A stretch of 64,000 bases of DNA from Styela clava (Eukaryota; Chordata; Ascidiacea; Stolidobranchia; Styelidae). The stretch spans positions 3,224,001 to 3,288,000 of the forward strand of contig NC_135262.1 of assembly GCF_964204865.1 (NCBI RefSeq), written 5' to 3'. The translations under genes were made by a program, and so were the position numbers. The first letter of the stretch is position 1, and every line of letters starts with the position of its first letter. Of the stretch, positions 42,124 to 64,000 are shown piece after piece. The notes under the pieces are model-generated. The model searched no databases. It was not told the DNA's origin and saw nothing but the letters and a program-made list of their open reading frames with translations.

Positions 42124-42197
42124 GAGTCAAAAGTGGGGATCGAACTCAAGACCTCTGATTTAGGAGAGCGTTGCCTTAACCACTGAGCTACGGGTCC
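42124..42197 (-). pseudogene. tRNA-like pseudogene (CCT loop)
   Basis: On the minus strand GGACCCGTAGCTCAGTGG starts a tRNA-like 74-mer with GAGTTCGATCC as B box and a CTCCTAA loop. Anticodon stem and acceptor do not pair, so this is probably a relic, about 2 kb from the array. Confidence 0.5.
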
Positions 42198-43161: not shown

Positions 43162-44241
43162 CGATACATCCATAGGTTAGTGGTTAGAGCAGCATTTCCC
43201 AAACTTTTTTCGCCACGGAACACTTACACATTTTATCTCGCCTCGCGGAACACCAAAAAATGAAAGAATAAAATTGATAAAGAAAAACGGTCTAATGTAG
43301 TGGTTCCCAATGGATTGGCGAGTTGAAAAATGCGCCGCCAAAACTAACAGAATTGTGTTAAACATACTTAAAATATGATTGAATATTCTACATATAGCAT
43401 TTAATATAAATGTTTTATTGTTTCTTAATTTAAATGCTGTGTATATGATTCAATAAATTCATTTTACTTTTCTACGTCGTTTTTTTTATTACGTAGTGTT
43501 TGCCTGTAATGTTACGTCTATTGGACATAGAAGCACTTGATGCAATTTCGCGAGCTGCAGACCTACAGTTTATTTATCAGCTGAATCGAGTTTAGCGAAC
43601 ATGAGTAATTTTTCAGCATTTCAAAGTAAAACCAGGCAAAGATGAAGCAAGAAGAGTTGACCTTTTGCTTTTATTCTTTAGACCTACTTGTTTGTCTATA
43701 GCAAAACCAAGAGAATTGCTGTAAACTTGATAATGAACCTAACAGTCAAAAATCTAGGCCGACAAAATTTACGGATTTTGTTAACTTTATATTCATAAAT
43801 ATTATACATTAGTCTATCAGCTCCTTCACGAAGTATATTATTAATGCTGAATATATTTTGCTCTTTATAACTAATAAGAGAGATATGCTCAAATATATGG
43901 ACACAGAGTCCCTAACGAAATGTTTTACCATCATTTCCCCGAGAATCATATGGTTGTCGTGTCCAATGGAAAATACAAATGTTTACTGTCCCATCCCACG
44001 GGATGTTTTCCATGAACAAGTCTGAAAATACCACTACCCTACCTTAGTTAGGGACGCGGAATTGAACGTTCAGTTGGGTGACAACTTCACGATCCCTAGA
44101 TCGCTATGGCGACCAATTTAGATGTATTTCTGATTCCCTTTCAACACTCGAGAGACGGTCGCAGAACACTAGTGCTCCGCGGAACACAGTTTGGGAAACG
44201 CTGGGTTAGAGCAGTGCTCTAACCACTGAGCTATAGCGGCG
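43162..44241. pseudogene. Head-to-head tRNA 5' halves split by the hAT element
   Basis: Left piece (CCATAGGTTAGTGGTTAGAG, plus) and right piece (CTCTAACCACTGAGCTATAG, minus) are tRNA 5' halves in opposite orientation. Without the element they would join as a near-palindrome around AGTGGTTAGAGCA. Confidence 0.6.
43190..44203. mobile_element. hAT-like element inserted in a tRNA-derived palindrome
   Basis: CAGCATTTCCCAAACTTTTT at left and AGTTTGGGAAACGCTG at right; GGTTAGAG duplicated exactly at 43182-43189 and 44204-44211. 1,014 bp, no clear transposase. The target is the D-arm/A-box end of tRNA-like sequence. Confidence 0.88.
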
Positions 44242-45085
44242 ACTGAACACGCGAATGAAACAAGTCAATGTGTGGATTTGATTAACTAATTTCGCTCGTT
44301 CCGATTTGATTGGCGCCGACTGAAACTATGCATGGGACAAGATAATGTATAGATTTCATTAACTAAATGTAAGGTTTGTTGTTTCATTTACTCGATAGAT
44401 GGACATCAAAAAATTAGGAACCAAAGCCACCAGTGAGGATCGAACTCACGACTCCTGTTTTACAAGACCAGTGCTCTAACCACTGAGCTATGGCGGCGAC
44501 TGAAAACGCTAAGGAAACAAGACAATGTCTGGATTTGATTAACTAATTCCACTCGTTCGGATTTGATTGGCGCCGACTATGGCGCCGACTGAAACTATTC
44601 ATGAAACAAGATAATGTATAGATTTCAGTAAGTAATTGTCAGGTGTGTTGTTTTATTTACTCGATAGATAAGACATAAAAAAACAAAGAAACAAAGCCAC
44701 CAGTGAGGGTCGAATTCACGACCCCTGGTTTACGGGACCAGTGCCCTAACCCCTGAGCTATGGAGGCGACTAAAATAGCGAATGAAACAAGACGATTTGT
44801 GAATTTGATTAACTACTTCCACTCGTTCGGATCCGATTGGCGCCAACTGAAACTATGCATGGAGCAAGACAATGTATAGATTCCATTAACTATGAATGTC
44901 ATTTTTTTAATTTCTTGATAGATAAACAACACAAAGGGAGCATCCAAAGACTCCAGTGAGGATCGAACTCACGACCCATGGTTTACAAGACCAGCGCCCT
45001 AACAGCTGAGCTATGGCTGCGACTGAAACGCGGGTGGAACATGACAATGTGTGGGTTTGATTGATTGATAGATAAAGGAAAATAT

Positions 45086-45158
45086 AGCCACCAGCGAGAT
45101 TCGAACTCGCGACCCCTGCTTTACGAGAGCAGTGCTCTAACCACTGAGCTACGGCGGC
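45086..45158 (-). tRNA. tRNA-Thr (CGT), near intact
   Basis: CGT in CTCGTAA loop with paired CTGCT/AGCAG stem and T arm GCGAGTTCGAATCTCGC. One change in the acceptor (GCCGCCG) still pairs as G-T. Confidence 0.75.
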
Positions 45159-45239
45159 GTCGAAAATGCAACGGAACGAAACAGTTTATAGATTTCAATG
45201 ACTAATTGCCATTTTCTTTTTTTCTTGATAGATAGACAT

Positions 45240-46683
45240 CACGGAACGAGCATGCAAAGCCACCAGTGAGGATCGAACTCACGACCCCTGGTTTACAAGA
45301 CCAGTGCTCTAATTACGGATGTATGGCGGCTACTTAAAAGACCGTTGAAACAGGACAATGTATAGATTTGAATAACTACTTTCACTCGTTCGGATTTGAC
45401 GGATTGTTAGATATACCATAAGAAGCCGTCCAGAACAGCAATAAAGCCACCTGCTCGGTTACAATTCGCGACTCCTGCTTTACGAGAGCATTGCACTAAC
45501 CATTGAACTATGGCGTCGACTGAAACTATACATGAAAGAGGATAAGGTATAGATTTTGTTAAATAGTTGTTATTTTTCAATTTTCTTGAAAGATAGACAT
45601 AAACAAAGGGATATCCAAAGCCACTAGTGATGATCGAACTCACGACCCCTGGTTTACAAGACCAGTGCTCTAATTGCGGATGTATATCGGCTACTGAAAA
45701 GACCGTTGGAAAAGGACAATGTGTAGATTTGATTAACTACTTTCACTCGTTCGGATTCGACGGATTGTTAGATATACCATTAGAAGCCGTCCAGAACAGC
45801 AATAAAGCCACCTGCTCGGTTACAACTCGCGACTCCTGCTTTACGAGAGCACTGCACTAACCATTGAACTATGGAGTCGATTGAAACTATGCATGAAACA
45901 AGATAATATCTAGATTTCGTTAAATAGTTGGTATTTTTCAATTTTCTTGAAAGATAGACATAAACAAAAGCGACATCCAATGCCACCAGTGAGGATCGAA
46001 CTCACGACCCCTGGTTTACAAGACCAGTGCTCTAATTACGGATGTATGGCGGCTACTGAAAAGACCGTTGAAACAGGGCAATGTATAGATTTGAATAACT
46101 ACTTTCACTCGTTCGGATTTGACGGATTGTTAGATATACCATAAGAAGCCGTCCAGAACAGCAATAAAGCCACCTGCTCGGTTACAATTCGCGACTCCTG
46201 CTTTACGAGAGCATTGCACTAACCATTGAACTATGGCGTCGACTGAAACTATACATGAAAGAGGATAAGGTATAGATTTTGTTAAATAGTTGTTATTTTT
46301 TAATTTTCTTGAAAGATAGACATAAACAAAGGGATATCTAAAGCCACTAGTGATGATCGAACTCACGACCCCTGGTTTACAAGACCAGTGCTCTAATTGC
46401 GGATGTATATCGGCTACTGAAAAGAACGTTGGAAAAGGACAATGTGTAGATTTGATTAACTACTTTCACTCGTTCGGATTTGACGGATTGTTAGATATAC
46501 CATAAGAAGCCGTCCAGTACAGCAATAAAGCCACCTGCTCGGTTACAACTCGCGACTCCTGCTTTACGAGAGCACTGCACTAACCATTGAACTATGGATT
46601 CGATTGAAACTATGCATGGAACAAGATAATATCTAGATTTCGTTAAATAGTTGGTATTTTTTTATTTTTTCTTGAAAGATAGA
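45240..46683 (-). repeat. 723-bp four-tRNA tandem duplication
   Basis: Units at 45258, 45445, 45619 and 45806 recur at 45981, 46168, 46342 and 46529, each shifted by exactly 723 bp, with few changes. All eight tRNA-like units are damaged (dead A box or broken B box). Confidence 0.88.
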
Positions 46684-46707
46684 CATAAAAACAAAAGCGA
46701 CATCCAA

Positions 46708-46780
46708 TGCCACCAGTGAGAATCGAACTCACGACCCCTGGTTTACAAGACCAGTGCTCTAACTACTGAGCTATGGCGGC
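46708..46780 (-). tRNA. tRNA-Thr (TGT), near intact
   Basis: TGT anticodon arm and B box (GAGTTCGATTC) intact. Small changes in D loop (CAGTAGTTAG) and at the discriminator. Confidence 0.6.
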
Positions 46781-46888
46781 GACTGAAGAGACTGAAACAA
46801 GACAATGTGTGGATTTGATTAACTACTTTCACTCGTTCGGATTTGATTGATTGGTTGATAGAGCAAAAGCAGCTAAAGACAGCAATTA

Positions 46889-46961
46889 AGCCACCAGTGA
46901 GGATCGAACTCGCGACCCCTGCTTTATGAGAGCAGTGCACTAACAAATGAACTATGGCGTT
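46889..46961 (-). pseudogene. tRNA-Thr-derived unit with CAT anticodon
   Basis: Anticodon arm CTGCT-CTCATAA-AGCAG pairs fully but reads CAT (Met code). D arm is the variant type (GTTCATTTGTTAGTGC), acceptor 5' end AACGCCA mismatched. Sisters: 48253, 50672, 50959, 53122, 55541, 55828, 57990, 60700, 60987. One C-to-T step from the CGT type explains the anticodon. Confidence 0.7.
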
Positions 46962-47323
46962 GACTGAAACTATGCATGGAACAAGATAAGGTGTAGATTT
47001 CATTGACTAATTGTAAGGTTTGTTATTTCATTTACTCGATAGATAAGACATAAAAAAAACAAAGAACCAAAGCCACCAGTGAGGATCGAATTCACGACCC
47101 CTGGTTTACGGGACCAGTGCCCTAACCACTGAACTATGGCGGCGACTAAAATCGCGAATGAAACAAGACAATGTGTGGATTTGATTAACTAAATTCACTC
47201 GTTCGGATCCGATTGTCGCCAACTGAAACTATGCACGGAGCAAGACAATGTATAGATTTCATTAACTATGAATGTCCCTTTTTCAATTTCGGGATAGATA
47301 GACAACACAAAGGGAGCATCCAA

Positions 47324-47396
47324 AGCCTCCAGCGAAGATCGAACTCACGACCCTTGGTTTACGAGAGCAATGCATTAACCAATGAACTACGGCGTC
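47324..47396 (-). pseudogene. Chimeric tRNA unit
   Basis: The 3' half (CCTCCAG..., CCTTGG) matches the TGT-type units such as 47740, while the 5' half (GACGCCGTAGTTCATTGG, GCATTGCTCTCG) matches the variant CGT/CAT type. The resulting anticodon stem has a mismatch. Confidence 0.65.
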
Positions 47397-48431
47397 GACT
47401 AAAATTATGCATGCAACAAGATAATGTATAAATTTCATTAACTAATTGTGAGGTTTGTTGTTTCATCTACTCGATAGATGAACATCAAAAAAATCGGAAC
47501 CAAAGCCACCAGTGAGGATCAAACTCACGACCCCTGGTTTACAAGACCAGCGCCCTAACAACTAAAATCGCGGATGAAACAAGACAATGTGTGGATTTGA
47601 TTAACTAATTTCACTTGTTCGGATCCGATTGGCGCCAACTGAAACTATGCATGGAGCAAGACAATGTATAGATTTCATTAACTATGAATGTCATTTTTTC
47701 AATTTCTTGATAGATAGACAACACAAAGGGAGCATCCAAAGCCTCCAGTGAGGATTGAACTCACGACCCTTGGTTTACAAGACCAGCGCCCTAACAGCTG
47801 AGCTATGGCTGCGACTGAAAACGCGGGTGGAACATGACAATGTGTGGATTTGATTGATTGGTTGATAAAGCAAAAGCAGTCAAAGACAACAAAACAGCCG
47901 CCAGCGAGATTTGAACTCGCGAACCCTGCTTTACGAGAGCAGTTGTCTAACCACTGAGCTATGGCGGCGTCGAAAATGCAAATGGAACGAAAACATTTAT
48001 AGATTCCAATAACTAATTGCCATTTTCTTATTTTCTCGATAGATACACATCACGGAACGAGCATACAAAGCCACCAGTGAGTATCAAACTCACGACCCCT
48101 GGTTTACAAGACCAGTGCTCTAATTACGGATGTATGGCGGTTACTGAAAAGACCGTTGGAAAAGGACAATGTATAGATTTGATTTACTACTTTCACTCGT
48201 TCGGATTTGATTGATTGGTTGATAGAGCAAAAGCAGTTAAAGACAGCAATTAAGCCATCAGTGAGGATTGAACTCCCGACCCCTGCTTTATGAGAGCAGT
48301 GCACTAACCAACGAACTATGGCGTTGACTGAAACTATGCATGGAACAATATAATGTGTAGATTTCATTACCTAATTGTAAAGTTTGTTGTTTCATTTACT
48401 CGATAGATGGACATCAAAAAACTAGGACCAA

Positions 48432-48504
48432 AGCCACCAGTGAGGATCGAACTCACGACCCCTGGTTTACAAGACCAGTGCTCTAACCACTGAGCTATGG
48501 CGGC
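48432..48504 (-). tRNA. tRNA-Thr (TGT), intact
   Basis: Identical to the intron 1 gene at 26932. Followed 14 nt later by a T6 run on the minus strand. Block 1. Confidence 0.86.
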
Positions 48505-49360
48505 GACTGTAAACGCTAAATAAACAAGACAATGTGTGGATTTGATTATCCACTCCCACTCGTTTGGATTTTAATGATTGGTATATAAAGCAAAAGCAGT
48601 TAAAGACAGCAATAAAGCCATCAGCGAGATTTAAACTTGCGACCCCTGCTTTACGAGAGGAGTACTCTAACCACTGAGCTATGGCGGAAAATTAAAATAC
48701 GGTTTAACTAAGTGTCATTTTTTTAAGTTCTTGATAGTTTAACATCACAAAGGGAGCATCCAAAGTCACCAGTGAAAATCGAACTCACGACCCCTGGTTT
48801 ACAAGACCAGCGCCGTAACAACTGAGCAATGGCGGCAAATGCAAACGCAAATAAACAAGACAATGTGTGAATTTGATTAACTACTTTCACTCTTTCGGAA
48901 TTGATTGATTGGTGGATATAACAAGAGAAGCCGTCCAAAACAGCAATAAAGTCACCAGCGCGATTCCAACTCGCGACTCCTGCTTTACAAGAGAAGTGCA
49001 CTAACCAATGAACTATGGCGTCGACTGAAACTATGCGTGGAAGAAGATAATGTATAGATTTCGTTAAATAATTGTCAATTTTCTATTTTCTTGAAAGACA
49101 GACATAAACAAAAGGGACATGGTAAGCCACCAGTGAGGATTGAATTCGCGACCCCTGCTTTACGAGAGCAGTGCACTAACCAATGACCTATTACGTCGAC
49201 TGAAACTATGCATAAAACAAGATAATGTATAGATTTCATTAACTAATTGTAAGGTTTGTTGTTTCCTTTACTCGATAGATAAACATTAAAAAAATCGCAA
49301 CCAATAATTGTCATTTTTTTATTTTCTTGAAAGACAGACATAAACAAAAGGGACAACCAA

Positions 49361-49433
49361 AGCCACCAGTGAGGATCGAATTCACGATCCCTGGTTTAGG
49401 GGACCAGTGCCCTATCCACTGTGCTATGGCGGC
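49361..49433 (-). pseudogene. tRNA-Thr-derived unit with CCT anticodon
   Basis: Loop CCCCTAA between CTGGT and ACCAG reads CCT (Arg code). D arm is altered (GCACAGTGGATAGGGC) and the T stem has a mismatch. Sisters at 54230 and 59390. Confidence 0.68.
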
Positions 49434-49769
49434 GACTAAAATCGCGAATGAAACAAGACAATGTGTGGATTTGATTAACTACTTTCACTCGTTCGGATCC
49501 GATTGGCGCCAACTGAAACTATGCATGGAGCAAGACAATGTATAGATTTCATTAACTATGAATGTCATTTTTTTAACTTCTTGATAGATAGACAACACAA
49601 AGGGAGCATCTAAAGCCTCCAGTGAGGATCGAACTCACGACCCTTGGTTTACAAGATCAGCGCCCTAACAGCTGAGCTAAGGCTGCGACTGAAAACGCGG
49701 TTGGAACATGACAATGTGTGGATTTGATTGATTGGTTGAAAAAGCAAAAGCAGTCAAATACAACAATAC

Positions 49770-49842
49770 AGCCACCAGCGAGACTCGAACTCGCGACCCC
49801 TGCTTTACGAGAGCAGTGCTCTAACCACTGAGCTATGGCGGC
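49770..49842 (-). tRNA. tRNA-Thr (CGT), intact
   Basis: All stems pair; T loop GTTCGAGTC keeps the B box. CGT in CTCGTAA. Block 1. Confidence 0.84.
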
Positions 49843-50125
49843 GTCGATAATACAACGGAACAAAACAGTTTATAGATTTCAATGACTAATTGCCATTTTC
49901 TTATTTTCTTGACAGATAGACATCGCGGAACGAGCATGCAAAGCCACCAGTGAGGATCGAACTCACGACCCCTGGTTTACAAGACCAGTGCTCTAATTAC
50001 GGATGTATATCGGCTACTGAAAATACCGTTGGAAAAGAACAATGTATAGATTTGATTCACTACTTTCACTCGTTCGGATTTGATTGATTGGTTGATAGAG
50101 CAAAAGCAGTTAAAGACAGCAATAC

Positions 50126-50198
50126 AGCCACCAGCGAGATTCGAACTCGCAATCCCTGGTTTACAAGACCAGTGCTCTAATTACGGATGTATATCGGC
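50126..50198 (-). pseudogene. Chimeric tRNA unit with CGT-type T arm and dead TGT-type D arm
   Basis: T arm GCGAGTTCGAATCTCGC is from the CGT lineage; anticodon arm (TGT) and D arm (ATCCGTAATTAGAGC) are from the dead TGT lineage. Copies at 54995 and 60154. Confidence 0.68.
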
Positions 50199-51828
50199 TA
50201 CCGAAAAGACCGTTGGAAAAGGACAATGTATAGATTTGATTAACTACCTTCACTCGTTCGGATTTGACGGATTGTTAGATATACCATAAAAAGACGTCTA
50301 GAACAGCAATAAAGCCACCTGCTCGGTTACAACCCGCGACTCCTGCCTTACGAGAGCATTGCACTAACCATTGAACTATGGCGTCGAATGAAGCTATACA
50401 TAAAAGAAGATAAGGTATAGATTTCGTTAAATAGTTGTTATTATTCAATTTTCTCGGAAGATAGACATAAACAAAAGGGACATCCAGAGCCACCAGTGAG
50501 GATCGAACTCACGACCCCTGGTTTACAAGACCAGTGCTCCAATTACGGATATATATCGGCTACTGAAAAGACCGTTGAAAAAGGATAATGTATAGATTTG
50601 ATTAACTACTTTCACTCGTTCGGATTTGATTGATTGGTTGATAGAGCAAAAGCAGCTAAAGACAGCAATTAAGCCACCAGTGAGGATCGAACTCGCGACC
50701 CCTGCTTTATGAGAGCAGTGCACTAACCAATGAACTATGGCGATGACTGAAACTATGCATGGAACAAGATAATGTGTAGACTTCATTAACTAATTGTAAG
50801 GTTTGTTGTTTCATTTACTCGATAGATGAACATCAAAAAACTAGGAACCAAAGCCACCAGTGAGGATCGAACTCACGAGCCCTGGTGATTTTCTACTTTC
50901 ACTCGTTCGGATTTGATTGATTGGTTGATAGAGCAAAAGCAGTTAAAGACAGCAATTAAGCCACCAGTGAGGATCGAACTCCCGACCCCTGCTTTATGAG
51001 AGCAGTGCACTAACCAACGAACTATGGCGTCGACTGAAACTATCCATGGAACAAGATAATGAGTAGATTTCATTAACTAATTTTAAGGTTTGTTGTTTCA
51101 TTTACTCGATAGATGGACATCAAAGAACTAGGAACCAAAGCCACCAGTGGGGATATAACTCACGACCCCTGGTTTACGAGATCAGTGCACTAACCACTGA
51201 GCTATGGCGGAAAATTAAAATACGGTTTAACTAAGTGTCATTTTTTTAAGTTCTTGATAGATTAACATCACAAAGGGAGCATCCAAAGACACCAGTGAAA
51301 ATCGAAGTCACGACCCCTAGTTTACAAGACCAGCGCCCTAACAACTGAGCTATGGCGGCAACTGCAAACGCAAATGAAACAAGACAATGTGTGAATTTGA
51401 TTAACTACTTTCACTCTTTCGGATTTGATTGATTGGTGGATATAACAAGACAAGCCGTCCAAAACAGCAATAAATTCACCAGCGCGTTTCCAACTCGCGA
51501 CTCCTGCTTCACGAGAGAAGTGCACTAATCAATGAACTATGGCGTCGACTGAAACTATGCGTGGAAGAAGATAATGTATGGATTTCGTTAAATAATTGTC
51601 AATTTTTTATTTTCTTGAAAGACAGACATAAACAAAAGTGACTTGGTAAGCGACCAGTGAGGATTGAACCCACGTCCCCTGTTTTACGAGAGCAGTGCAC
51701 TAACCAATGAACTATTACGTCGACTGAAAATATGCATGAAACAAGATAATGTATAGATTTCATTAAATAATTGTAAGGTTTGTTGTTTCATTTACTCGAT
51801 AGATAAACATTAAAAAAATCGGAACCAA

Positions 51829-51901
51829 AGCCACCAGTGAGGATCGAACTCACGACCCCTGGTTTACAAGACCAGTGCTCTAACCACTGAGCTATGGCGG
51901 C
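51829..51901 (-). tRNA. tRNA-Thr (TGT), intact
   Basis: Consensus sequence; T7 run about 14 nt downstream. Block 1. Confidence 0.86.
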
Positions 51902-52084
51902 GACCGAACACGCAAAGGAAACAAGACATTGTGTGGATTTGATTAACTAATTCAACTCGTTCGGATTTGATTGGCGCCGACTGCAACTATGCATGGAACA
52001 AGATTATGTATAGATTTCATTAACTAATTGTAAGGTTTGTTGTTTCATTTATTCGATAGTTAAACATAAAAAAATGGGAACCAA

Positions 52085-52157
52085 AGCCACCAGTGAGGAT
52101 CGAACTCACGACCCCTGGTTTACAAGACCAGTGCTCTAACCACTGAGCTATGGCGGC
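52085..52157 (-). tRNA. tRNA-Thr (TGT), intact
   Basis: Consensus sequence; T7 run downstream. Block 1. Confidence 0.86.
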
Positions 52158-52356
52158 GACTGAAAACGCTAATGAAACAAGACAATGTTTGGATTTGATT
52201 AATTAATTCCACTCGTTCGGATTTGATTGGCGCCGACTATGGCGCCGACTGAAACTATTCATGGAACAAGATAATGTATAGATTTCAGTAACTAATTGTC
52301 AGGTGTGTTGTTTCATTTTCTCGATAGATAAGACATAAAAAAAAACAAAGAACCAA

Positions 52357-52429
52357 AGCCACCAGTGAGGATCGAACTCACGACCCCTGGTTTACGGGAC
52401 CAGTGCCCTAACCACTGAACTATGGCGGC
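52357..52429 (-). tRNA. tRNA-Thr (CGT) with CCCGTAA loop
   Basis: Second CGT type: stem CTGGT/ACCAG of the TGT lineage but loop CCCGTAA, so it gained CGT independently of the CTCGTAA type. D arm GTTCAGTGGTTAGGGC is slightly changed. Block 1. Confidence 0.7.
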
Positions 52430-52764
52430 GACTAAAATCGCGAATGAAACAATACAATGTGTGGATTTGATTAACTAATTTCACTCGTTCGGATCCGATT
52501 GGCGCCAACTAGAACTATGCAAGGAGCAAGACAATGTATAGATTTCATTAACTATGAATGTCTTTTTTTAATTTCTTGATAGATAAACAACACAAAGGGA
52601 GCATCCAAAGCCTCCAGTGAGGATCGACCTCTCGACACTTGGTTTACAATACCAGCGCCCTAACAGCTGAGCTATGGCTGCGACTGAAAACGCGGGTGGA
52701 ACATGACAATGTGTGGATTTGATTGATTTGTTGATAAAGCAAAAGCAGTCAAAGACAACAATAC

Positions 52765-52837
52765 AGCCACCAGCGAGATTCGAACTTGCGACCCCTGCTT
52801 TACGAGAGCAGTGCTCTAACCACTGAGCTATGGCGGC
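52765..52837 (-). tRNA. tRNA-Thr (CGT), one T-stem mismatch
   Basis: T arm GCAAGTTCGAATCTCGC has one A-C mismatch; otherwise as the clean CGT copies. Last unit of block 1. Confidence 0.7.
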
Positions 52838-53300
52838 GTCGAAAATGCAAATGGAACGAAAACATTTATAGATTCCAATAACTAATTGCCATTTTCTTAT
52901 TTTCTCGATAGATACACATCACGGAACGAGCATACAAAGCCACCAGTGAGTATCAAACTCACGACCCCTGGTTTACAAGACCAGTGCTCTAATTACGGAT
53001 GTATGGCGGTTACTGAAAAGACCGTTGGAAAAGGACAATGTATAGATTTGATTTACTACTTTCACTCGTTCGGATTTGATTGATTGGTTGATAGAGCAAA
53101 AGCAGTTAAAGACAGCAATTAAGCCATCAGTGAGGATTGAACTCCCGACCCCTGCTTTATGAGAGCAGTGCACTAACCAACGAACTATGGCGTTGACTGA
53201 AACTATGCATGGAACAATATAATGTGTAGATTTCATTACCTAATTGTAAAGTTTGTTGTTTCATTTACTCGATAGATGGACATCAAAAAACTAGGACCAA

Positions 53301-53373
53301 AGCCACCAGTGAGGATCGAACTCACGACCCCTGGTTTACAAGACCAGTGCTCTAACCACTGAGCTATGGCGGC
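53301..53373 (-). tRNA. tRNA-Thr (TGT), intact
   Basis: Block 2 copy of 48432-48504, unchanged. Confidence 0.86.
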
Positions 53374-54638
53374 GACTGTAAACGCTAAATAAACAAGACA
53401 ATGTGTGGATTTGATTATCCACTCCCACTCGTTTGGATTTTAATGATTGGTATATAAAGCAAAAGCAGTTAAAGACAGCAATAAAGCCATCAGCGAGATT
53501 TAAACTTGCGACCCCTGCTTTACGAGAGGAGTACTCTAACCACTGAGCTATGGCGGAAAATTAAAATACGGTTTAACTAAGTGTCATTTTTTTAAGTTCT
53601 TGATAGTTTAACATCACAAAGGGAGCATCCAAAGTCACCAGTGAAAATCGAACTCACGACCCCTGGTTTACAAGACCAGCGCCGTAACAACTGAGCAATG
53701 GCGGCAAATGCAAACGCAAATAAACAAGACAATGTGTGAATTTGATTAACTACTTTCACTCTTTCGGAATTGATTGATTGGTGGATATAACAAGAGAAGC
53801 CGTCCAAAACAGCAATAAAGTCACCAGCGCGATTCCAACTCGCGACTCCTGCTTTACAAGAGAAGTGCACTAACCAATGAACTATGGCGTCGACTGAAAC
53901 TATGCGTGGAAGAAGATAATGTATAGATTTCGTTAAATAATTGTCAATTTTCTATTTTCTTGAAAGACAGACATAAACAAAAGGGACATGGTAAGCCACC
54001 AGTGAGGATTGAATTCGCGACCCCTGCTTTACGAGAGCAGTGCACTAACCAATGACCTATTACGTCGACTGAAACTATGCATAAAACAAGATAATGTATA
54101 GATTTCATTAACTAATTGTAAGGTTTGTTGTTTCCTTTACTCGATAGATAAACATTAAAAAAATCGCAACCAATAATTGTCATTTTTTTATTTTCTTGAA
54201 AGACAGACATAAACAAAAGGGACAACCAAAGCCACCAGTGAGGATCGAATTCACGATCCCTGGTTTAGGGGACCAGTGCCCTATCCACTGTGCTATGGCG
54301 GCGACTAAAATCGCGAATGAAACAAGACAATGTGTGGATTTGATTAACTACTTTCACTCGTTCGGATCCGATTGGCGCCAACTGAAACTATGCATGGAGC
54401 AAGACAATGTATAGATTTCATTAACTATGAATGTCATTTTTTTAACTTCTTGATAGATAGACAACACAAAGGGAGCATCTAAAGCCTCCAGTGAGGATCG
54501 AACTCACGACCCTTGGTTTACAAGACCAGCGCCCTAACAGCTGAGCTAAGGCTGCGACTGAAAACGCGGTTGGAACATGACAATGTGTGGATTTGATTGA
54601 TTGGTTGAAAAAGCAAAAGCAGTCAAATACAACAATAC

Positions 54639-54711
54639 AGCCACCAGCGAGACTCGAACTCGCGACCCCTGCTTTACGAGAGCAGTGCTCTAACCACTGA
54701 GCTATGGCGGC
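54639..54711 (-). tRNA. tRNA-Thr (CGT), intact
   Basis: Block 2 copy of 49770-49842, unchanged. Confidence 0.84.
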
Positions 54712-56697
54712 GTCGATAATACAACGGAACAAAACAGTTTATAGATTTCAATGACTAATTGCCATTTTCTTATTTTCTTGACAGATAGACATCGCGGAAC
54801 GAGCATGCAAAGCCACCAGTGAGGATCGAACTCACGACCCCTGGTTTACAAGACCAGTGCTCTAATTACGGATGTATATCGGCTACTGAAAATACCGTTG
54901 GAAAAGAACAATGTATAGATTTGATTCACTACTTTCACTCGTTCGGATTTGATTGATTGGTTGATAGAGCAAAAGCAGTTAAAGACAGCAATACAGCCAC
55001 CAGCGAGATTCGAACTCGCAATCCCTGGTTTACAAGACCAGTGCTCTAATTACGGATGTATATCGGCTACCGAAAAGACCGTTGGAAAAGGACAATGTAT
55101 AGATTTGATTAACTACCTTCACTCGTTCGGATTTGACGGATTGTTAGATATACCATAAAAAGACGTCTAGAACAGCAATAAAGCCACCTGCTCGGTTACA
55201 ACCCGCGACTCCTGCCTTACGAGAGCATTGCACTAACCATTGAACTATGGCGTCGAATGAAGCTATACATAAAAGAAGATAAGGTATAGATTTCGTTAAA
55301 TAGTTGTTATTATTCAATTTTCTCGGAAGATAGACATAAACAAAAGGGACATCCAGAGCCACCAGTGAGGATCGAACTCACGACCCCTGGTTTACAAGAC
55401 CAGTGCTCCAATTACGGATATATATCGGCTACTGAAAAGACCGTTGAAAAAGGATAATGTATAGATTTGATTAACTACTTTCACTCGTTCGGATTTGATT
55501 GATTGGTTGATAGAGCAAAAGCAGCTAAAGACAGCAATTAAGCCACCAGTGAGGATCGAACTCGCGACCCCTGCTTTATGAGAGCAGTGCACTAACCAAT
55601 GAACTATGGCGATGACTGAAACTATGCATGGAACAAGATAATGTGTAGACTTCATTAACTAATTGTAAGGTTTGTTGTTTCATTTACTCGATAGATGAAC
55701 ATCAAAAAACTAGGAACCAAAGCCACCAGTGAGGATCGAACTCACGAGCCCTGGTGATTTTCTACTTTCACTCGTTCGGATTTGATTGATTGGTTGATAG
55801 AGCAAAAGCAGTTAAAGACAGCAATTAAGCCACCAGTGAGGATCGAACTCCCGACCCCTGCTTTATGAGAGCAGTGCACTAACCAACGAACTATGGCGTC
55901 GACTGAAACTATCCATGGAACAAGATAATGAGTAGATTTCATTAACTAATTTTAAGGTTTGTTGTTTCATTTACTCGATAGATGGACATCAAAGAACTAG
56001 GAACCAAAGCCACCAGTGGGGATATAACTCACGACCCCTGGTTTACGAGATCAGTGCACTAACCACTGAGCTATGGCGGAAAATTAAAATACGGTTTAAC
56101 TAAGTGTCATTTTTTTAAGTTCTTGATAGATTAACATCACAAAGGGAGCATCCAAAGACACCAGTGAAAATCGAAGTCACGACCCCTAGTTTACAAGACC
56201 AGCGCCCTAACAACTGAGCTATGGCGGCAACTGCAAACGCAAATGAAACAAGACAATGTGTGAATTTGATTAACTACTTTCACTCTTTCGGATTTGATTG
56301 ATTGGTGGATATAACAAGACAAGCCGTCCAAAACAGCAATAAATTCACCAGCGCGTTTCCAACTCGCGACTCCTGCTTCACGAGAGAAGTGCACTAATCA
56401 ATGAACTATGGCGTCGACTGAAACTATGCGTGGAAGAAGATAATGTATGGATTTCGTTAAATAATTGTCAATTTTTTATTTTATTGAAAGACAGACATAA
56501 ACAAAAGTGACTTGGTAAGCGACCAGTGAGGATTGAACCCACGTCCCCTGTTTTACGAGAGCAGTGCACTAACCAATGAACTATTACGTCGACTGAAAAT
56601 ATGCATGAAACAAGATAATGTATAGATTTCATTAAATAATTGTAAGGTTTGTTGTTTCATTTACTCGATAGATAAACATTAAAAAAATCGGAACCAA

Positions 56698-56770
56698 AGC
56701 CACCAGTGAGGATCGAACTCACGACCCCTGGTTTACAAGACCAGTGCTCTAACCACTGAGCTATGGCGGC
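56698..56770 (-). tRNA. tRNA-Thr (TGT), intact
   Basis: Block 2 copy of 51829-51901, unchanged. Confidence 0.86.
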
Positions 56771-56953
56771 GACCGAACACGCAAAGGAAACAAGACATTG
56801 TGTGGATTTGATTAACTAATTCAACTCGTTCGGATTTGATTGGCGCCGACTGCAACTATGCATGGAACAAGATTATGTATAGATTTCATTAACTAATTGT
56901 AAGGTTTGTTGTTTCATTTATTCGATAGTTAAACATAAAAAAATGGGAACCAA

Positions 56954-57026
56954 AGCCACCAGTGAGGATCGAACTCACGACCCCTGGTTTACAAGACCAG
57001 TGCTCTAACCACTGAGCTATGGCGGC
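56954..57026 (-). tRNA. tRNA-Thr (TGT), intact
   Basis: Block 2 copy of 52085-52157, unchanged. Confidence 0.86.
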
Positions 57027-57225
57027 GACTGAAAACGCTAATGAAACAAGACAATGTTTGGATTTGATTAATTAATTCCACTCGTTCGGATTTGATTGGC
57101 GCCGACTATGGCGCCGACTGAAACTATTCATGGAACAAGATAATGTATAGATTTCAGTAACTAATTGTCAGGTGTGTTGTTTCATTTTCTCGATAGATAA
57201 GACATAAAAAAAAACAAAGAACCAA

Positions 57226-57298
57226 AGCCACCAGTGAGGATCGAACTCACGACCCCTGGTTTACGGGACCAGTGCCCTAACCACTGAACTATGGCGGC
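57226..57298 (-). tRNA. tRNA-Thr (CGT) with CCCGTAA loop
   Basis: Block 2 copy of 52357-52429. Confidence 0.7.
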
Positions 57299-57633
57299 GA
57301 CTAAAATCGCGAATGAAACAATACAATGTGTGGATTTGATTAACTAATTTCACTCGTTCGGATCCGATTGGCGCCAACTAGAACTATGCAAGGAGCAAGA
57401 CAATGTATAGATTTCATTAACTATGAATGTCTTTTTTTAATTTCTTGATAGATAGACAACACAAAGGGAGCATCCAAAGCCTCCAGTGAGGATCGACGTC
57501 TCGACACTTGGTTTACAATACCAGCGCCCTAACAGCTGAGCTATGGCTGCGACTGAAAACGCGGGTGGAACATGACAATGTGTGGATTTGATTGATTTGT
57601 TGATAAAGCAAAAGCAGTCAAAGACAACAATAC

Positions 57634-57706
57634 AGCCACCAGCGAGATTCGAACTTGCGACCCCTGCTTTACGAGAGCAGTGCTCTAACCACTGAGCTAT
57701 GGCGGC
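57634..57706 (-). tRNA. tRNA-Thr (CGT), one T-stem mismatch
   Basis: Block 2 copy of 52765-52837 with the same T-stem mismatch. Confidence 0.7.
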
Positions 57707-58861
57707 GTCGAAAATCAAATGGAACAAAACAATTTATAGATTTCAATAACTAATTGCCATTTTCTTATTTTCTCGATAGATACACATCACGGAACGAGCA
57801 TGCAAAGCCACCAGTGAGTATCAAACTCACGACCCCTGGTTTACAAGACCAGTGCTCTAATTACGGATGTATGGCGGTTACTGAAAAGACCGTTGGAAAA
57901 GGACAATGTATAGATTTAATTTACTACTTTCACTCGTTCAGATTTGATTGATTGGTTGATAGAGCAAAAGCAGTTAATGACAGCAATTAAGCCATCATTG
58001 AGGATTGAACTCCCGACCCCTGCTTTATGAGAGCAGTGCACTAACCAACGAACTATGGCGTTGACTGAAACTATGCATGGAGCAATATAATGTGTAGATT
58101 TCATTAACTAATTGTAAAGTTTGTTGTTTCATTTACTCGATAGATGGACATCAAAAAACTAGGAACCAAAGCCACCAGTGAAGATCGAATTTACGACCCC
58201 TGGTTCACAAAACCAGTGCTCTAACCACTGAGCTATGGCGGCGACTGTAAACGCTAGATAAACAAGACAATGTGCGGATTTGATTATCCACTTCCACTCG
58301 TTTGGATTTTGATGATTGGTATATAAAGCAAAAGAAGTTAAAGGCAGCAATAAATCCATCAGCGAGATTTAAACTTGCGACCCCTGCTTTACGAGAGGAG
58401 TGCTCTAACCACTGAGCTTTGGTGGAAAATTAAAATACGGTTTAACTAAGTGTCATTTTTGTAAGTTCTTGATAGTTTAACATCACAAAGGGAGCATCCA
58501 AAGTCACCAGTGAAAATCGAACTCACGACCCTGGTTTACAAGACCAGCGCCGTAACAACTGAGCTATGGCGGCAAATGCAAACGCAAATAAACAAGACAA
58601 TGTGTGGATTTGATTAACTACTTTCACTTGTTCGGAGTTGATTGATTGGTGGATATACCAAGAGAAGCCGTCCAAAACAGCAATGAAGTCACCAGCGCGG
58701 TTCCAACTCGCGACTCATGCTTCACGAAAGCAGTGCACTAACCAATAAACTATGGCGTCGACTAAAACTATCCGTGGAAGAAGATATTGTATAGATTTCG
58801 TTAAATAATTGTCATTTTTTTATTTTCTTGAAAGACAGAAATAAACAAAATGGACAACCAA

Positions 58862-58934
58862 AGCCACCAGTGAGGATCGAACTCACGACCCCTGGTTTAC
58901 AAGACCAGTGCTCTAGCCACTGAGCTATGGCGGC
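58862..58934 (-). tRNA. tRNA-Thr (TGT), one D-arm change
   Basis: Consensus except GGCTAGAGC for GGTTAGAGC. Found only in block 3. Confidence 0.75.
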
Positions 58935-59798
58935 GATTGAACACGCGAAGGAAACAAGACAATGTGTGGATTTGATTAATCAACTTCACTCGTTCGGATT
59001 TGATTGGCGCCGACTGAAACTATGCATGGAACAAAATAATGTATAGATTTCATTAACTAATTGTAAGGTTTGTTGTTTCATGTACTCGATAGATGGACAT
59101 CAAAAAAATAGGAACCATAGACACCAGTGAGGATTGAACTCACGACCCCTGGTTTACAAGACCAGTGCTGTAACCACTGAGCTATGGCGGCGACTGAAAA
59201 CGCTAATGAAACAAGATAATGTTTGGATTTGATGAACTAATTCCACTCGTTCGGATTTGATTGGCGCCGACTATGGCGCCGACTGAAACTATTCATAGAA
59301 CAAGATAATGTATAGATTTCAGTAACTAATTGTCAGGTGTGTTGTTTCATTTACTCGATAGATAAGACATAAAAAAAACAAAGAACCAAAGCCACCAGTG
59401 AGGATCGAATTCACGATCCCTGGTTTAGGGGACCAGTGCCATATCCACTGTGCTATGGCGGCGACTAAAATCGCGAATGAAACAAGACAATGTGTGGATT
59501 TGATTAACTACTTTCACTCGTTCGGATCCGATTGGCGCCAACTGAAACTATGCATGGAGGAAGACAATGTATAGATTTCATTAACTATGAATGTCATTTT
59601 TTTAACTTCTTGATAGATAGACAACACAAAGGGAGCATCTAAAGCCTCCAGTGAGGATCGAACTCACGACCTGTGGTTTACAAGACCAGCGCCCTAACAG
59701 CTGAGCTAAGGCTGTGACTGAAAACGCGGTTGGAACATGACAATGTGTGGATTTGATTGATTGGTTGATAAAGCAAAAGCAGTCAAAGGCAACAATAC

Positions 59799-59871
59799 AG
59801 CCACCAGCGAGACTCGAACTCGCGACCCCTGCTTTACGAGAGCAGTGCTCTAACCACTGAGCTATGGCGGC
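59799..59871 (-). tRNA. tRNA-Thr (CGT), intact
   Basis: Block 3 counterpart of 49770-49842, same sequence. Confidence 0.84.
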
Positions 59872-61856
59872 GTCGAAAATGCAACGGAACAAAACATTTA
59901 TAGATTTCAATGACTAATTGCCATTTTCTTATTTTCTTGATAGATAGACATCGCGGAACGAGCATGCAAAGCCACCAGTGAGGATCGAACTCACGACCCC
60001 TGGTTTACAAGACCAGTGCTCTAATTACGGATGTATATCGGCTACTGAAAAGACCGTTGGAAAAGGACAATGTATAGATTTGATTCACTACTTTCACCCG
60101 TTCGGATTTGATTGATTGGTTGATAGAGCAAAAGCAGTCAAAGACAGCAATACAGCCACCAGCGAGATTCGAACTCGCAATCCCTGGTTTACAAGACCAG
60201 TGCTCTAATTACGGATGTATATCGGCTACTGAAAAGACCGTTGGAAAAGGACAATGTATAGATTTGATTAACTACCTTCACTCGTTCGGATTTGACGGAT
60301 TGTTAGATATACCATAAAAAGACTTCTATAACAGCAATAAAGCCACCTGCTCGGTTACAACCCGCGACTCCTGCCTTACGAGAGCATTGCACTAACCATT
60401 GAACTATGGCGTCGACTGAAGCTATACATAAAAGAAGATAAGGTATAGATTTCGTTAAATAGTTGTTATTATTCAATTTTCTCGGAAGATAGACATAAAC
60501 AAAAGGGACATCCAGAGCCACCAGTGAGGATCGAACTCACGACCCCTGGTTTACAAGACCAGTGCTCTAATTACGGATATATATCGGCTACTGAAAAGAC
60601 CGTTGAAAAAGGATAATGTATAGATTTGATCAACTACTTTCACTCGTTCGGATTTGATTGATTGGTTGATAGAGCAAAAGCAGCTAAAGACAGCAATTAA
60701 GCCACCAGTGAGGATCGAACTCGCGACCCCTGCTTTATGAGAGCAGTGCACTAACCAATGAACTATGGCGATGACTGAAACTATGCATGGAACAAGATAA
60801 TGTGTAGACTTCATTAACTAATTGTAAGGTTTGTTGTTTCATTTACTCGATAGATGAACCTCAAAAAACTAGGAACCAAAGCCACCAGTGAGGATCGAAC
60901 TCACAAGCCCTGGTATTTTTCTACTTTCACTCGTTCGGATTTGATTGATTGGTTGATAGAGCAAAAGCAGTTAAAGACAGCAATTAAGCCACCAGTGAGG
61001 ATCGAACTCCCGACCCCTGCTTTATGAGAGCAGTGCACTAACCAACGAACTATGGCGTCGACTGAAACTATCCATGGAACAAGATAATGAGTAGATTTCA
61101 TTAACTAATTGTAAGGTTTGTTGTTTCATTTACTCGATAGATGGACATCAAAGAACTAGGAACCAAAGCCACCAGTGAGGATAGAACTCACGACCCCTGG
61201 TTTACGAGATCAGTGCACTAACCACTGAGCTATGGCGGAAAATTAAAATACGGTTTAACTAAGTGTCATTTTTTTAAGTTCTTGATAGATTAACATCACA
61301 AAGGGAGCATCCAAAGACACCAGTGAAAATCGAAGTCACGACCCCTAGTTTACAAGACCAGCGCCCTAACAACTGAGCTATGGCGACAACTGCAAACGCA
61401 AATGAAACAAGACAATGTGTGAATTTGATTAACTACTTTCACTCTTTCGGATTTGATTGATTGGTGGATATAACAAGAGAAGCCGTCCAAAACAGCAATT
61501 AATTCACCAGCGCGTTTCCAACTCGCGACTCCTGCTTCACGAGAGAAGTGCACTAATCAATGAACTATGGCGTCGACTGAAACTATGCGTGGAAGAAGAT
61601 AATGTATGGATTTCGTTAAATAATTGTCAATTTTCTATTTTCTTGAAAGACAGACATAAACAAAAGTGACTTGGTAAGCGACCAGTGAGGATTGAACCCG
61701 CGACCCCTGCTTTACGAGAGCAGTGCACTAACCAATGAACTATTACGTCGACTGAAAATATGCATGAAACAAGATAATGTATAGATTTCATTAACTAATT
61801 GTAAGGTTTGTTGTTTCATTTACTCGATAGATAAACATTAAAAAAATCGGAACCAA

Positions 61857-61929
61857 AGCCACCAGTGAGGATCGAACTCACGACCCCTGGTTTACAAGAC
61901 CAGTGCTCTAACCACTGAGCTATGGCGGC
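61857..61929 (-). tRNA. tRNA-Thr (TGT), intact
   Basis: Consensus sequence in block 3, T7 run downstream. Confidence 0.86.
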
Positions 61930-62112
61930 GACTGAACACGCAAAGGAAACAAGACATTGTGTGGATTTGATTAACTAATTCGACTCGTTCGGATTTGATT
62001 GGCGCCGACTGCAACTATGCATGGAACAAGATTATGTATAGATTTCATTAACTAATTGTAAGGTTTGTTGTTTCATTTATTCGATAGTTAAACATAAAAA
62101 AATGGGAACCAA

Positions 62113-62185
62113 AGCCACCAGTGAGGATCGAACTCACGACCCCTGGTTTACAAGACCAGTGCTCTAACCACTGAGCTATGGCGGC
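62113..62185 (-). tRNA. tRNA-Thr (TGT), intact
   Basis: Consensus sequence in block 3, T7 run downstream. Confidence 0.86.
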
Positions 62186-62385
62186 GACTGAAAACGCTAA
62201 TGAAACAAGACAATGTTTGGATTTGATTAATTAATTCCACTCGTTCGGATTTGATTGGCGCCGACTATGGTGCCGACTGAAACTATTCATGGAACAAGAT
62301 AATGTATAGATTTCAGTAACTAATTGTCAGGTGTGTTGTTTCATTTTCTCGATAGATAAGACATAAAAAAAAAACAAAGAACCAA

Positions 62386-62458
62386 AGCCACCAGTGAGGA
62401 TCGAACTCACGACCCCTGGTATACAGGACCAGTGCCCTAACCACTGAGCTATTGCGGC
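62386..62458 (-). tRNA. tRNA-Thr (TGT) variant with altered loop
   Basis: Counterpart of the CCCGTAA units, but the loop reads CCTGTAT (TGT). The base after the anticodon is A, then T replaces A at the loop end. Acceptor GCCGCAA has a mismatch; function doubtful. Confidence 0.45.
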
Positions 62459-62794
62459 GACTAAAATCGCGAATGAAACAATACAATGTGTGGATTTGAT
62501 TAACTAATTTCACTCGTTCGGATCCGATTGGCGCCAACTAGAACTATGCAAGGAGCAAGACAATGTATAGATTTCATTAACTATGAATGTCATTTTTTTA
62601 ATTTCTTGATATATAGACAACACAAAGGGAGCATCCAAAGCCTCCAGTGAGTATCGACCTCTCGACACTTGGTTTACAAGACCAGCGCCCTAACAGCTGA
62701 GCTATGGCTGCGACTGAAAACGCGGGTGGAACATGACAATGTGTGGATTTGATTGATTTGTTGATAAAGCAAAAGCAGTCAAAGACAACAATAC

Positions 62795-62867
62795 AGCCAC
62801 CAGCGAGATTCGAACTCGCGACCCCTGCTTTACGAGAGCAGTGCTCTAACCACTGAGCTATGGCGGC
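62795..62867 (-). tRNA. tRNA-Thr (CGT), intact
   Basis: Identical to the intron 1 gene at 31507. Block 3 end; here the T-stem mismatch of blocks 1 and 2 is absent. Confidence 0.86.
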
Positions 62868-63330
62868 GTCGAAAATCAATTGGAACGAAACAATTTATAG
62901 ATTTCAATAACTAATTGCCATTTTCTTATTTTCTTGATAGATAGACATCACGGATCGAGCATGCAAATCCAACAGTGAGGATCGAACTCACGACCCCTGG
63001 TTTACAAGACCAGTGCTCTAATTACGGATGTATGGTGATTACTGAAAAAACCGTTGGAAAAGGACTATGAATAGATTTGATTAACTACTTTCACTCGTTC
63101 GGATTCGATTGATTGGTTGATAGAGCAAAAGCAGTTAAAGTCAACAATTAAGCCACCAGTGTGGATCGAACTCGCGACCCCTGCTTTACGAGAGCAGTGC
63201 ACTAACCAACGAACTATGGCGTTGACTGAAACTATGCATGGAACAAGATAATGTGTAGATTTCATTAACTAATTGTAAGGTTTGTTGTTTCATTTACTCG
63301 ATAGATGGACATCAAAAAACTAGGACCCAA

Positions 63331-63403
63331 AGCCACCAGTGAGGATCGAACTCACGACCCCTGGTTTACAAGACCAGTGCTCTAACCACTGAGCTATGGC
63401 GGC
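63331..63403 (-). tRNA. tRNA-Thr (TGT), intact
   Basis: Consensus sequence in shortened block 4, T6 run downstream. Confidence 0.86.
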
Positions 63404-63660
63404 GACTGAACACGCGAACGAAACAAGACAATATAGATTTCATTAACTATGAATGTCATTTTTTTTATTTCTTTATAGATAGACAATACAAAGGGAGCAT
63501 CCAAAGCCTCCAGTGAGGATCGAACTCACGACCTTGGGTTTACAAAACCAGCGCCCTAACAGCTGAGCTATGGCTGCGACTGAAAACGCGGGTGGAACAT
63601 GACAATGTATGGATTTGATTGATTGGTTGATAAAGCAAAAGCAGGCAAATACAACAATAC

Positions 63661-63733
63661 AGCCACCAGCGAGATTCGAACTCGCGACCCCTGCTTTACG
63701 AGAGCAGTGCTCTAACCACTGAGCTATGGCGGC
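63661..63733 (-). tRNA. tRNA-Thr (CGT), intact
   Basis: Identical to the intron 1 gene at 31507. Last unit of block 4. Confidence 0.86.
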
Positions 63734-64000
63734 GTCGAAAATGCAAATGGAACGAAACAATTTATAGATTTCAATGACTAATTGCCATTTTCTTATTTTC
63801 TTGATAGATAGACATCACGGAACAAGCATGCAAAGCCACCAGTGAGGATCGAACTCACGACCCCTGGTTTACAAGACCAGTGCTCTAACTACGGATGTAT
63901 GGTGATTACTGAAAAAACCGTTGGGAAAGGACTATGAATAGATTTGATTAACTACTTTCACTCGTTCGGATTCGATTGATTGGTTGATAGAGCAAAAGCA

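Follow-up and report, generated by a model that had tools for sequence, protein, structure and literature searches.

A 64,000-bp stretch of the genome of the ascidian Styela clava (contig C17, NC_135262.1, positions 3224001-3288000; hereinafter the window) ends in a dense run of short units derived from a tRNA-Thr gene, raising the question of whether such a locus is a set of working genes, a chromatin element built from their promoters, or a satellite that merely carries tRNA sequence. An earlier note on this DNA had counted about 104 units in one orientation from position 44404 onward, and had offered tRNA supply, a chromatin boundary driven by RNA polymerase III (Pol III), and a centromeric or selfish satellite as possible roles. 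Using an iterated nhmmer profile of the tRNA-Thr gene, searched on the minus strand only, we recovered 386 units in C17:3262001-3360000, of which 385 form one array spanning C17:3268207-3343009 (~75 kb; window position 44207 to window-equivalent 119009, i.e., 55 kb past the window end). The part inside the window (44207-64000, minus strand) holds 105 of these 385 units, bearing out the earlier count; the start is displaced, as the array begins with a truncated unit at 44207. The remaining unit, a lone tRNA-Thr-like sequence on the minus strand, lies 2 kb outside the array at 42125-42193. A self-comparison of the same region gave 32819 matches, none of them inverted, in keeping with a single orientation. 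With the Rfam tRNA model, 74 places of the array within the window reach at least the gathering score (81 window matches less 7 plus-strand genes), as do 203 in the following 60 kb, where the 150 matches listed are all on the minus strand. The locus thus shows the hallmarks of a tandem tRNA gene array, namely many same-strand tRNA genes, repeated units, and shared spacers.

The answer that we favor, and consider probable from the sequence evidence, is that this is a tandem Pol III tRNA-Thr gene array in which a working minority of units would be under selection and the decayed units would be neutral hitchhikers. When each unit is compared with whichever of the Thr-TGT and Thr-CGT genes is closer, the edit distances are bimodal, with 113 of the 385 units within three edits and the bulk of the others at 7-14. 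We accordingly termed the former intact and the latter decayed (272 units overall, 84 of the 105 in the window), the decayed units belonging mostly to recurrent subfamilies. Clustering of the tRNA parts yielded 39 groups, the 14 largest of which were given letters, leaving 30 units unlettered. All intact units come from two subfamilies: A (108 units, 75 of them intact), whose consensus is the exact tRNA-Thr(TGT) gene also present on contig C13, and D (39 units, 38 intact), whose consensus is the exact tRNA-Thr(CGT) gene with the anticodon arm CTGCT/AGCAG. Subfamilies B, C, E, F, and others bear their own recurrent lesions, such as a CAT anticodon in B and a rewritten A box in C. The two classes differ in their gene features: the A box is kept in 104/113 intact versus 50/272 decayed units, the B-box core GTTCGA in 98/113 versus 137/272, both boxes together in 89/113 versus 11/272, a run of four Ts (T4) within 40 nt downstream in 109/113 versus 157/272 (Fisher p=1e-16), and all 21 standard cloverleaf pairs in 78/113 versus 6/272. 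The complement of a gene in such an array (cloverleaf, A and B boxes, and T-run terminator) is complete in 66 of the 385 units (43 A and 23 D; 16 in the window), with 113 near-intact. For instance, the subfamily A unit at 48432-48504 (minus strand) matches the tRNA-Thr(TGT) reference gene exactly and passes every fold, box, and terminator check, and the subfamily D unit at 62795-62867 (minus strand) is an exact match to the tRNA-Thr(CGT) gene. The decayed unit at 50672-50744 (minus strand) is called by ARAGORN as tRNA-Met(CAT), CAT being the consensus anticodon of subfamily B, and scores 36.9 bits with Rfam. About 3 in 10 copies look like working genes kept in shape by selection.

Divergence within the array points the same way. 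Across 12 syntenic families of 4-16 copies, mean nucleotide diversity (pi) is 0.037 in intact units (1725 sites), 0.069 in decayed units (4543 sites), and 0.067 in spacer (10344 sites); intact pi falls below spacer pi in 12/12 families and decayed pi in 6/12 (label permutation within families, p=0.0005). When the five-letter context is held fixed, the tRNA/spacer divergence ratio of the intact-type subfamilies is 0.58 for A (bootstrap 0.40-0.88) and 0.24 for D (0.15-0.94), against 1.16 (0.55-1.98), 0.85 (0.69-0.97), and 1.12 (0.88-1.51) for the decayed subfamilies B, C, and E; H and I give 1.05 and 1.61, each on one or two contexts. As the copy numbers of B, C, and E (45, 44, and 36) are close to the 39 of D, the ratio of D cannot be put down to homogenization by copy number alone. 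Similarly, in eight older pairs of higher-order blocks, intact units diverge less than spacer in 8/8 and decayed units in 3/8, where the blocks overlap and a pair was scored as intact if either copy was intact, favoring low intact divergence. The apparent signature of selection on a minority of the units is thus seen in the older copies of the array. These constraints, along with the retained promoter boxes and terminators, speak for tRNA supply among the roles first suggested.

Several results weigh against this reading. Among duplicated blocks, the four youngest pairs (~2% divergence) show no lower divergence in intact units than in spacer (53/2151 sites, 2.46%, versus 265/13671, 1.94%; p=0.12), and decayed units (100/6330, 1.58%) diverge less than intact ones (p=0.011). 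Some decayed subfamilies have low context-fixed ratios (F 0.49, 0.43-0.82; G 0.30, 0.00-0.50; J 0.61; on 5, 3, and 1 contexts, respectively), which do not fit a simple picture of constraint; the bootstrap ranges are wide for D, A, and C, and the 12 syntenic families partly overlap. When tRNA and spacer divergence were compared monomer by monomer with an outgroup, the ratio exceeded 1 at low divergence for intact and decayed units alike and the two classes did not separate, in our opinion because a tRNA and its adjoining spacer may not share one history; syntenic families and equal-context pairs were used in its place. Further, some of the apparent constraint could instead reflect gene conversion between intact copies. 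Finally, in a tRNA-Lys array of the same genome, described below, many intact genes are followed by TCTTTGTTCC, without a T4 run in the 30 nt shown, and the terminator pattern is therefore not general.

What is unusual about this array is its higher-order, satellite-like layout. Its units are spaced at a median of 181 bp (mean 195 bp), with frequent values of 156, 173-187, 253-257, and 270 bp. A stretch at 45104-47208 (minus strand) is built of 361-bp dimers and 723-bp tetramers, shift identity within 45250-46300 peaking at 723 bp (73%) and 361 bp (69%). Beyond it, the block at 47386-54111 (minus strand) recurs at 52236-58979 with a shift of 4868 bp (97.8% identity over 6747 bp), and that at 54205-58271 (minus strand) at 59365-63432 with a shift of 5161 bp (97.6% over 4069 bp). 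The 45 longest self-matches listed range from 2.2 to 8.3 kb, with shifts including 1488, 2972, 4868, 5161, and 8109 bp, and the long blocks align with one another head to tail. Nearly identical units are met again at lags of 2, 4, 8, 16, 26, 27, and 42 units. The closest relative of a unit most commonly lies at a distance of 42, 26, or 55 units (68, 53, and 25 of 385, respectively), which indicates the copying of multi-unit blocks. TGT-type units stand next to CGT-type units in 237 of 384 neighboring pairs, and subfamily words such as CDEAAA, ABCDEA, and DEABAF recur along the array; 176 positions fall within six-letter words seen at least three times, against a mean of 0.045 and a maximum of 3 in 200 shuffles. 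Lag-averaged monomer identity across the whole array shows no dominant period, and block alignment and subfamily letters were used in its stead. Consequently, the monomer, dimer, tetramer, and block periods proposed in the earlier note hold locally and do not extend to a single period of the whole array, while its more general claim, that a tRNA-Thr family has expanded into an array that resembles a satellite and has higher-order repeats, is upheld by the shift peaks and block matches. In the higher-order repeats of alpha satellite, distinct monomer types stand in a fixed order that is itself repeated. The monomer types of the present array likewise follow a fixed, repeated order; unlike alpha satellite, it occurs at one locus only, its monomer is a Pol III gene or the remnant of one, and the gene appears constrained.

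These features would be reconciled if blocks are gained and lost through unequal crossing-over, selection on tRNA-Thr output preserves the minority of intact genes, and decayed units are carried along neutrally, being copied with the blocks as subfamilies. The array may then be a high-capacity source of tRNA-Thr, perhaps for oocytes, alongside a few isolated tRNA-Thr genes. The exact Thr-TGT gene has 32 matches in the genome, 23 in the array and 9 elsewhere on C13 and C17. The Thr-CGT gene, allowing up to three mismatches, has 36, all of them at the array locus (34 in the array and 2 in its plus-strand flank), and a looser pattern for the Thr-CGT anticodon gives 46, with 44 at the locus. The two remaining matches (C1:2438288, 73.7 bits, and C17:3662859, 72.9 bits) are complete tRNAs that belong to a different isodecoder. 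The array as the only Thr-CGT source was rejected on account of these two genes; judging from the matches, it is the D isodecoder that is found only at the array locus, the CGT anticodon itself occurring elsewhere too. No Thr-AGT gene was recovered with a matching D-loop pattern, which is blind to AGT or CGT genes with other loops. More speculatively, the locus could be a dedicated tRNA-Thr factory, perhaps of the oocyte or the growth phase, evolving as a true higher-order satellite, with the D isodecoder specific to the locus, the isolated Thr-CGT pair serving other tissues, selection acting on how many intact genes each block has, and blocks of mixed good and dead copies as the spreading units; we consider this fuller version less likely than not.

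The plus-strand flank of the array carries seven tRNA calls between window positions 26624 and 33401. These include three dispersed tRNA-Thr(TGT) genes at 26932, 28192, and 29204 (together 26932-29276), which are identical over 72 nt to the subfamily A consensus. A tRNA-Thr(CGT) gene at 31507-31579 is followed by array-type spacer in the orientation opposite to the array, and at 33148-33401 a tRNA-Thr(CGT) gene, array-type spacer, and a Thr-like unit 181 bp further on (its anticodon now TGG) make up an isolated array dimer on the plus strand. The copies at 31507 and 33148-33401 may be either founders of the array or escapees from it.

Elsewhere in the genome, we read 15 kb of an array on C2, 8 kb of C10, 10 kb of C13, and 3-kb pieces around single matches. 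The C2 array (15.881-15.902 Mb) consists of tRNA-Lys(TTT) genes, with a recurrent decayed class with an altered B box between intact genes. A tRNA-Cys(GCA) array at C10:6886001-6894000 has 13 same-strand calls within 8 kb and a single selenocysteine (SeC)-type call on the opposite strand, and C13 has a looser Thr/Gly tRNA cluster. Thus, tRNA arrays recur in this genome. As a separate observation, a 71-nt tRNA recurs every ~44-46 kb on the small contigs C98, C154, C191, C216, C296, and C318, as if it were part of a very long tandem unit, and is found singly on C54, C125, C131, C137, C138, C276, C340, and C360.

Among other explanations, the one that fares best, though it is unlikely, is that the locus serves as a boundary in chromatin or as a landing platform for TFIIIC, in which the repeated A and B boxes rather than the tRNAs would be under selection. 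The B-box core persists in about half of the decayed units, as counted above; in the 166 decayed TGT-type units B-box mismatches are slightly below those of the remainder of the unit (0.083 versus 0.101), and, in an excerpt of the report on it, a human tRNA tandem repeat at 1q23.3 is bound by CTCF and was proposed as a boundary (PMC4041453). However, the A box is hit worse than the remainder in decayed units of both types (0.216 versus 0.101 in TGT-type; 0.195 versus 0.134 in the 97 CGT-type), as is the B box in the CGT-type (0.231). The boxes are not kept across units as a TFIIIC boundary would have them, surviving together chiefly in the intact class, so that the description of the region as dense in A and B boxes does not apply uniformly. 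Given that decayed tRNA sequence, taken together, is as variable as spacer and that few decayed units keep both boxes, there is no sign of array-wide selection for TFIIIC sites, and the boundary role first suggested finds no support.

We regard as very unlikely a centromeric or selfish satellite that started by chance from tRNA genes. Higher-order repeats, single orientation, and the median spacing of 181 bp would all suit it, but constraint follows tRNA integrity, unrelated Lys and Cys arrays lie on C2 and C10, and the array is 75 kb long and lies at 3.3 of the 20.3 Mb of C17. Moreover, two 24-base words from the array spacer, searched with up to three mismatches, have 101 and 83 genome matches, and 100/100 and 83/83 of those listed fall in the array. 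These two words are thus not found on all or most chromosomes, as a centromeric satellite would be (a chromosome-specific centromere is still compatible with this), and the satellite role proposed at the outset is left without support. Highly improbable is an assembly artefact in which a few units were falsely multiplied: repeats as long and similar as the 8.3-kb (98.0% identity) and 6.7-kb (97.8%) blocks could lead an assembly astray, but block copies differ at ~2% of sites and older ones at 3-10% of spacer sites, and the 204 kb read around the window contain no N, with non-array sequence flanking the array on both sides within the 20.3-Mb contig (of an assembly of 376.6 Mb in 379 contigs). 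A tRNA-derived short interspersed nuclear element (SINE) forming tandem copies is scarcely credible, for, despite tRNA-derived units with repeated tails and a gag-like frame at 30024-30929 in the vicinity of the plus-strand copies, no dispersed copies sharing a non-tRNA tail were found, the spacer words being confined to the array among the matches listed and DNA matches outside C17 spanning the tRNA part plus a few bases at most, and the intact units are whole tRNAs with the same sequence as genes at other places.

How, then, does a tRNA-Thr gene array of this kind compare with known systems, as these appear in excerpts of the reports cited? Tandem tRNA arrays are described as unusual outside Entamoeba, yet are present in Hydractinia and Nematostella (PMC11067881), where, as here, they run head to tail with roughly even spacing and similar spacers in an animal genome, and do so for many isotypes. 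Like the present array, those of Entamoeba (PMC2652664) are tandem, some with several tRNA genes per unit; their units have up to five tRNA genes with microsatellite-like short repeats between them, whereas here we find one amino acid per unit, complex spacers, and many decayed copies. Large tRNA clusters and pseudogenes are reported from several animals (PMC2888827). On zebrafish chromosome 4 (PMC11417395, PMC2888827), large repetitive clusters likewise occur beside isolated genes, and, as with those clusters, the Thr-CGT isodecoder of the present array differs from the two isolated Thr-CGT genes; unlike in zebrafish, the TGT isodecoder is identical in array and isolated genes. The clustered zebrafish tRNAs are reported to be of maternal origin, a claim we do not make for the present array. 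The human 1q23.3 repeat (PMC4041453) is also a tandem repeat with tRNA genes, but its CTCF-bound, GC-rich units are 7.3 kb long with tRNA genes making up less than 6% of each, against ~181 bp here. Arabidopsis tRNA-Ser/Tyr and tRNA-Cys clusters (PMC10701932) similarly show repeating tRNA units, copy-number change, and a pseudogene beside a cluster, but comprise 27 units spread across nearly 40 kb and four ~0.42-kb units, with no higher-order blocks described in the excerpted text. No tRNA array with higher-order repeats turned up in the titles and abstract openings of the open-licence literature, which is weak evidence. The Styela array is accordingly an unusual, well-resolved variant of the tRNA gene arrays known from a few organisms, not a new type of system.

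Its interest lies in indicating, from a single chromosome-scale contig that reads through it, that one object can be both a functional array of genes and a satellite. It offers a means of gauging the number of copies retained by selection, the hitchhiking of dead copies, and the origin of higher-order repeats at a gene locus. As the Thr-CGT isodecoders of the array and of the isolated genes differ in sequence, tRNA sequencing of oocytes versus body tissues would be a direct test of whether repetitive clusters supply the egg, a role put forward for those of zebrafish.

Other features of the window lie to the left of the array. The frame at 30024-30929, near the plus-strand copies, comprises 301 codons, has by eye a CCHC-like zinc knuckle at its end, as in a retroelement gag, and had no match in Pfam. 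A dispersed repeat occurs in pieces of ~70-340 bp at 76-87% identity (787-1115, 3322-3517, 8666-8816, 9947-10142, 12104-12387, 23650-24000, 31983-32237, and 33651-34026), the copies at 32018 and 33686 holding an internal 49-bp duplication. Four open frames with sushi (CCP) domains at 3750-21059 on the minus strand are probably exons of one or more genes.

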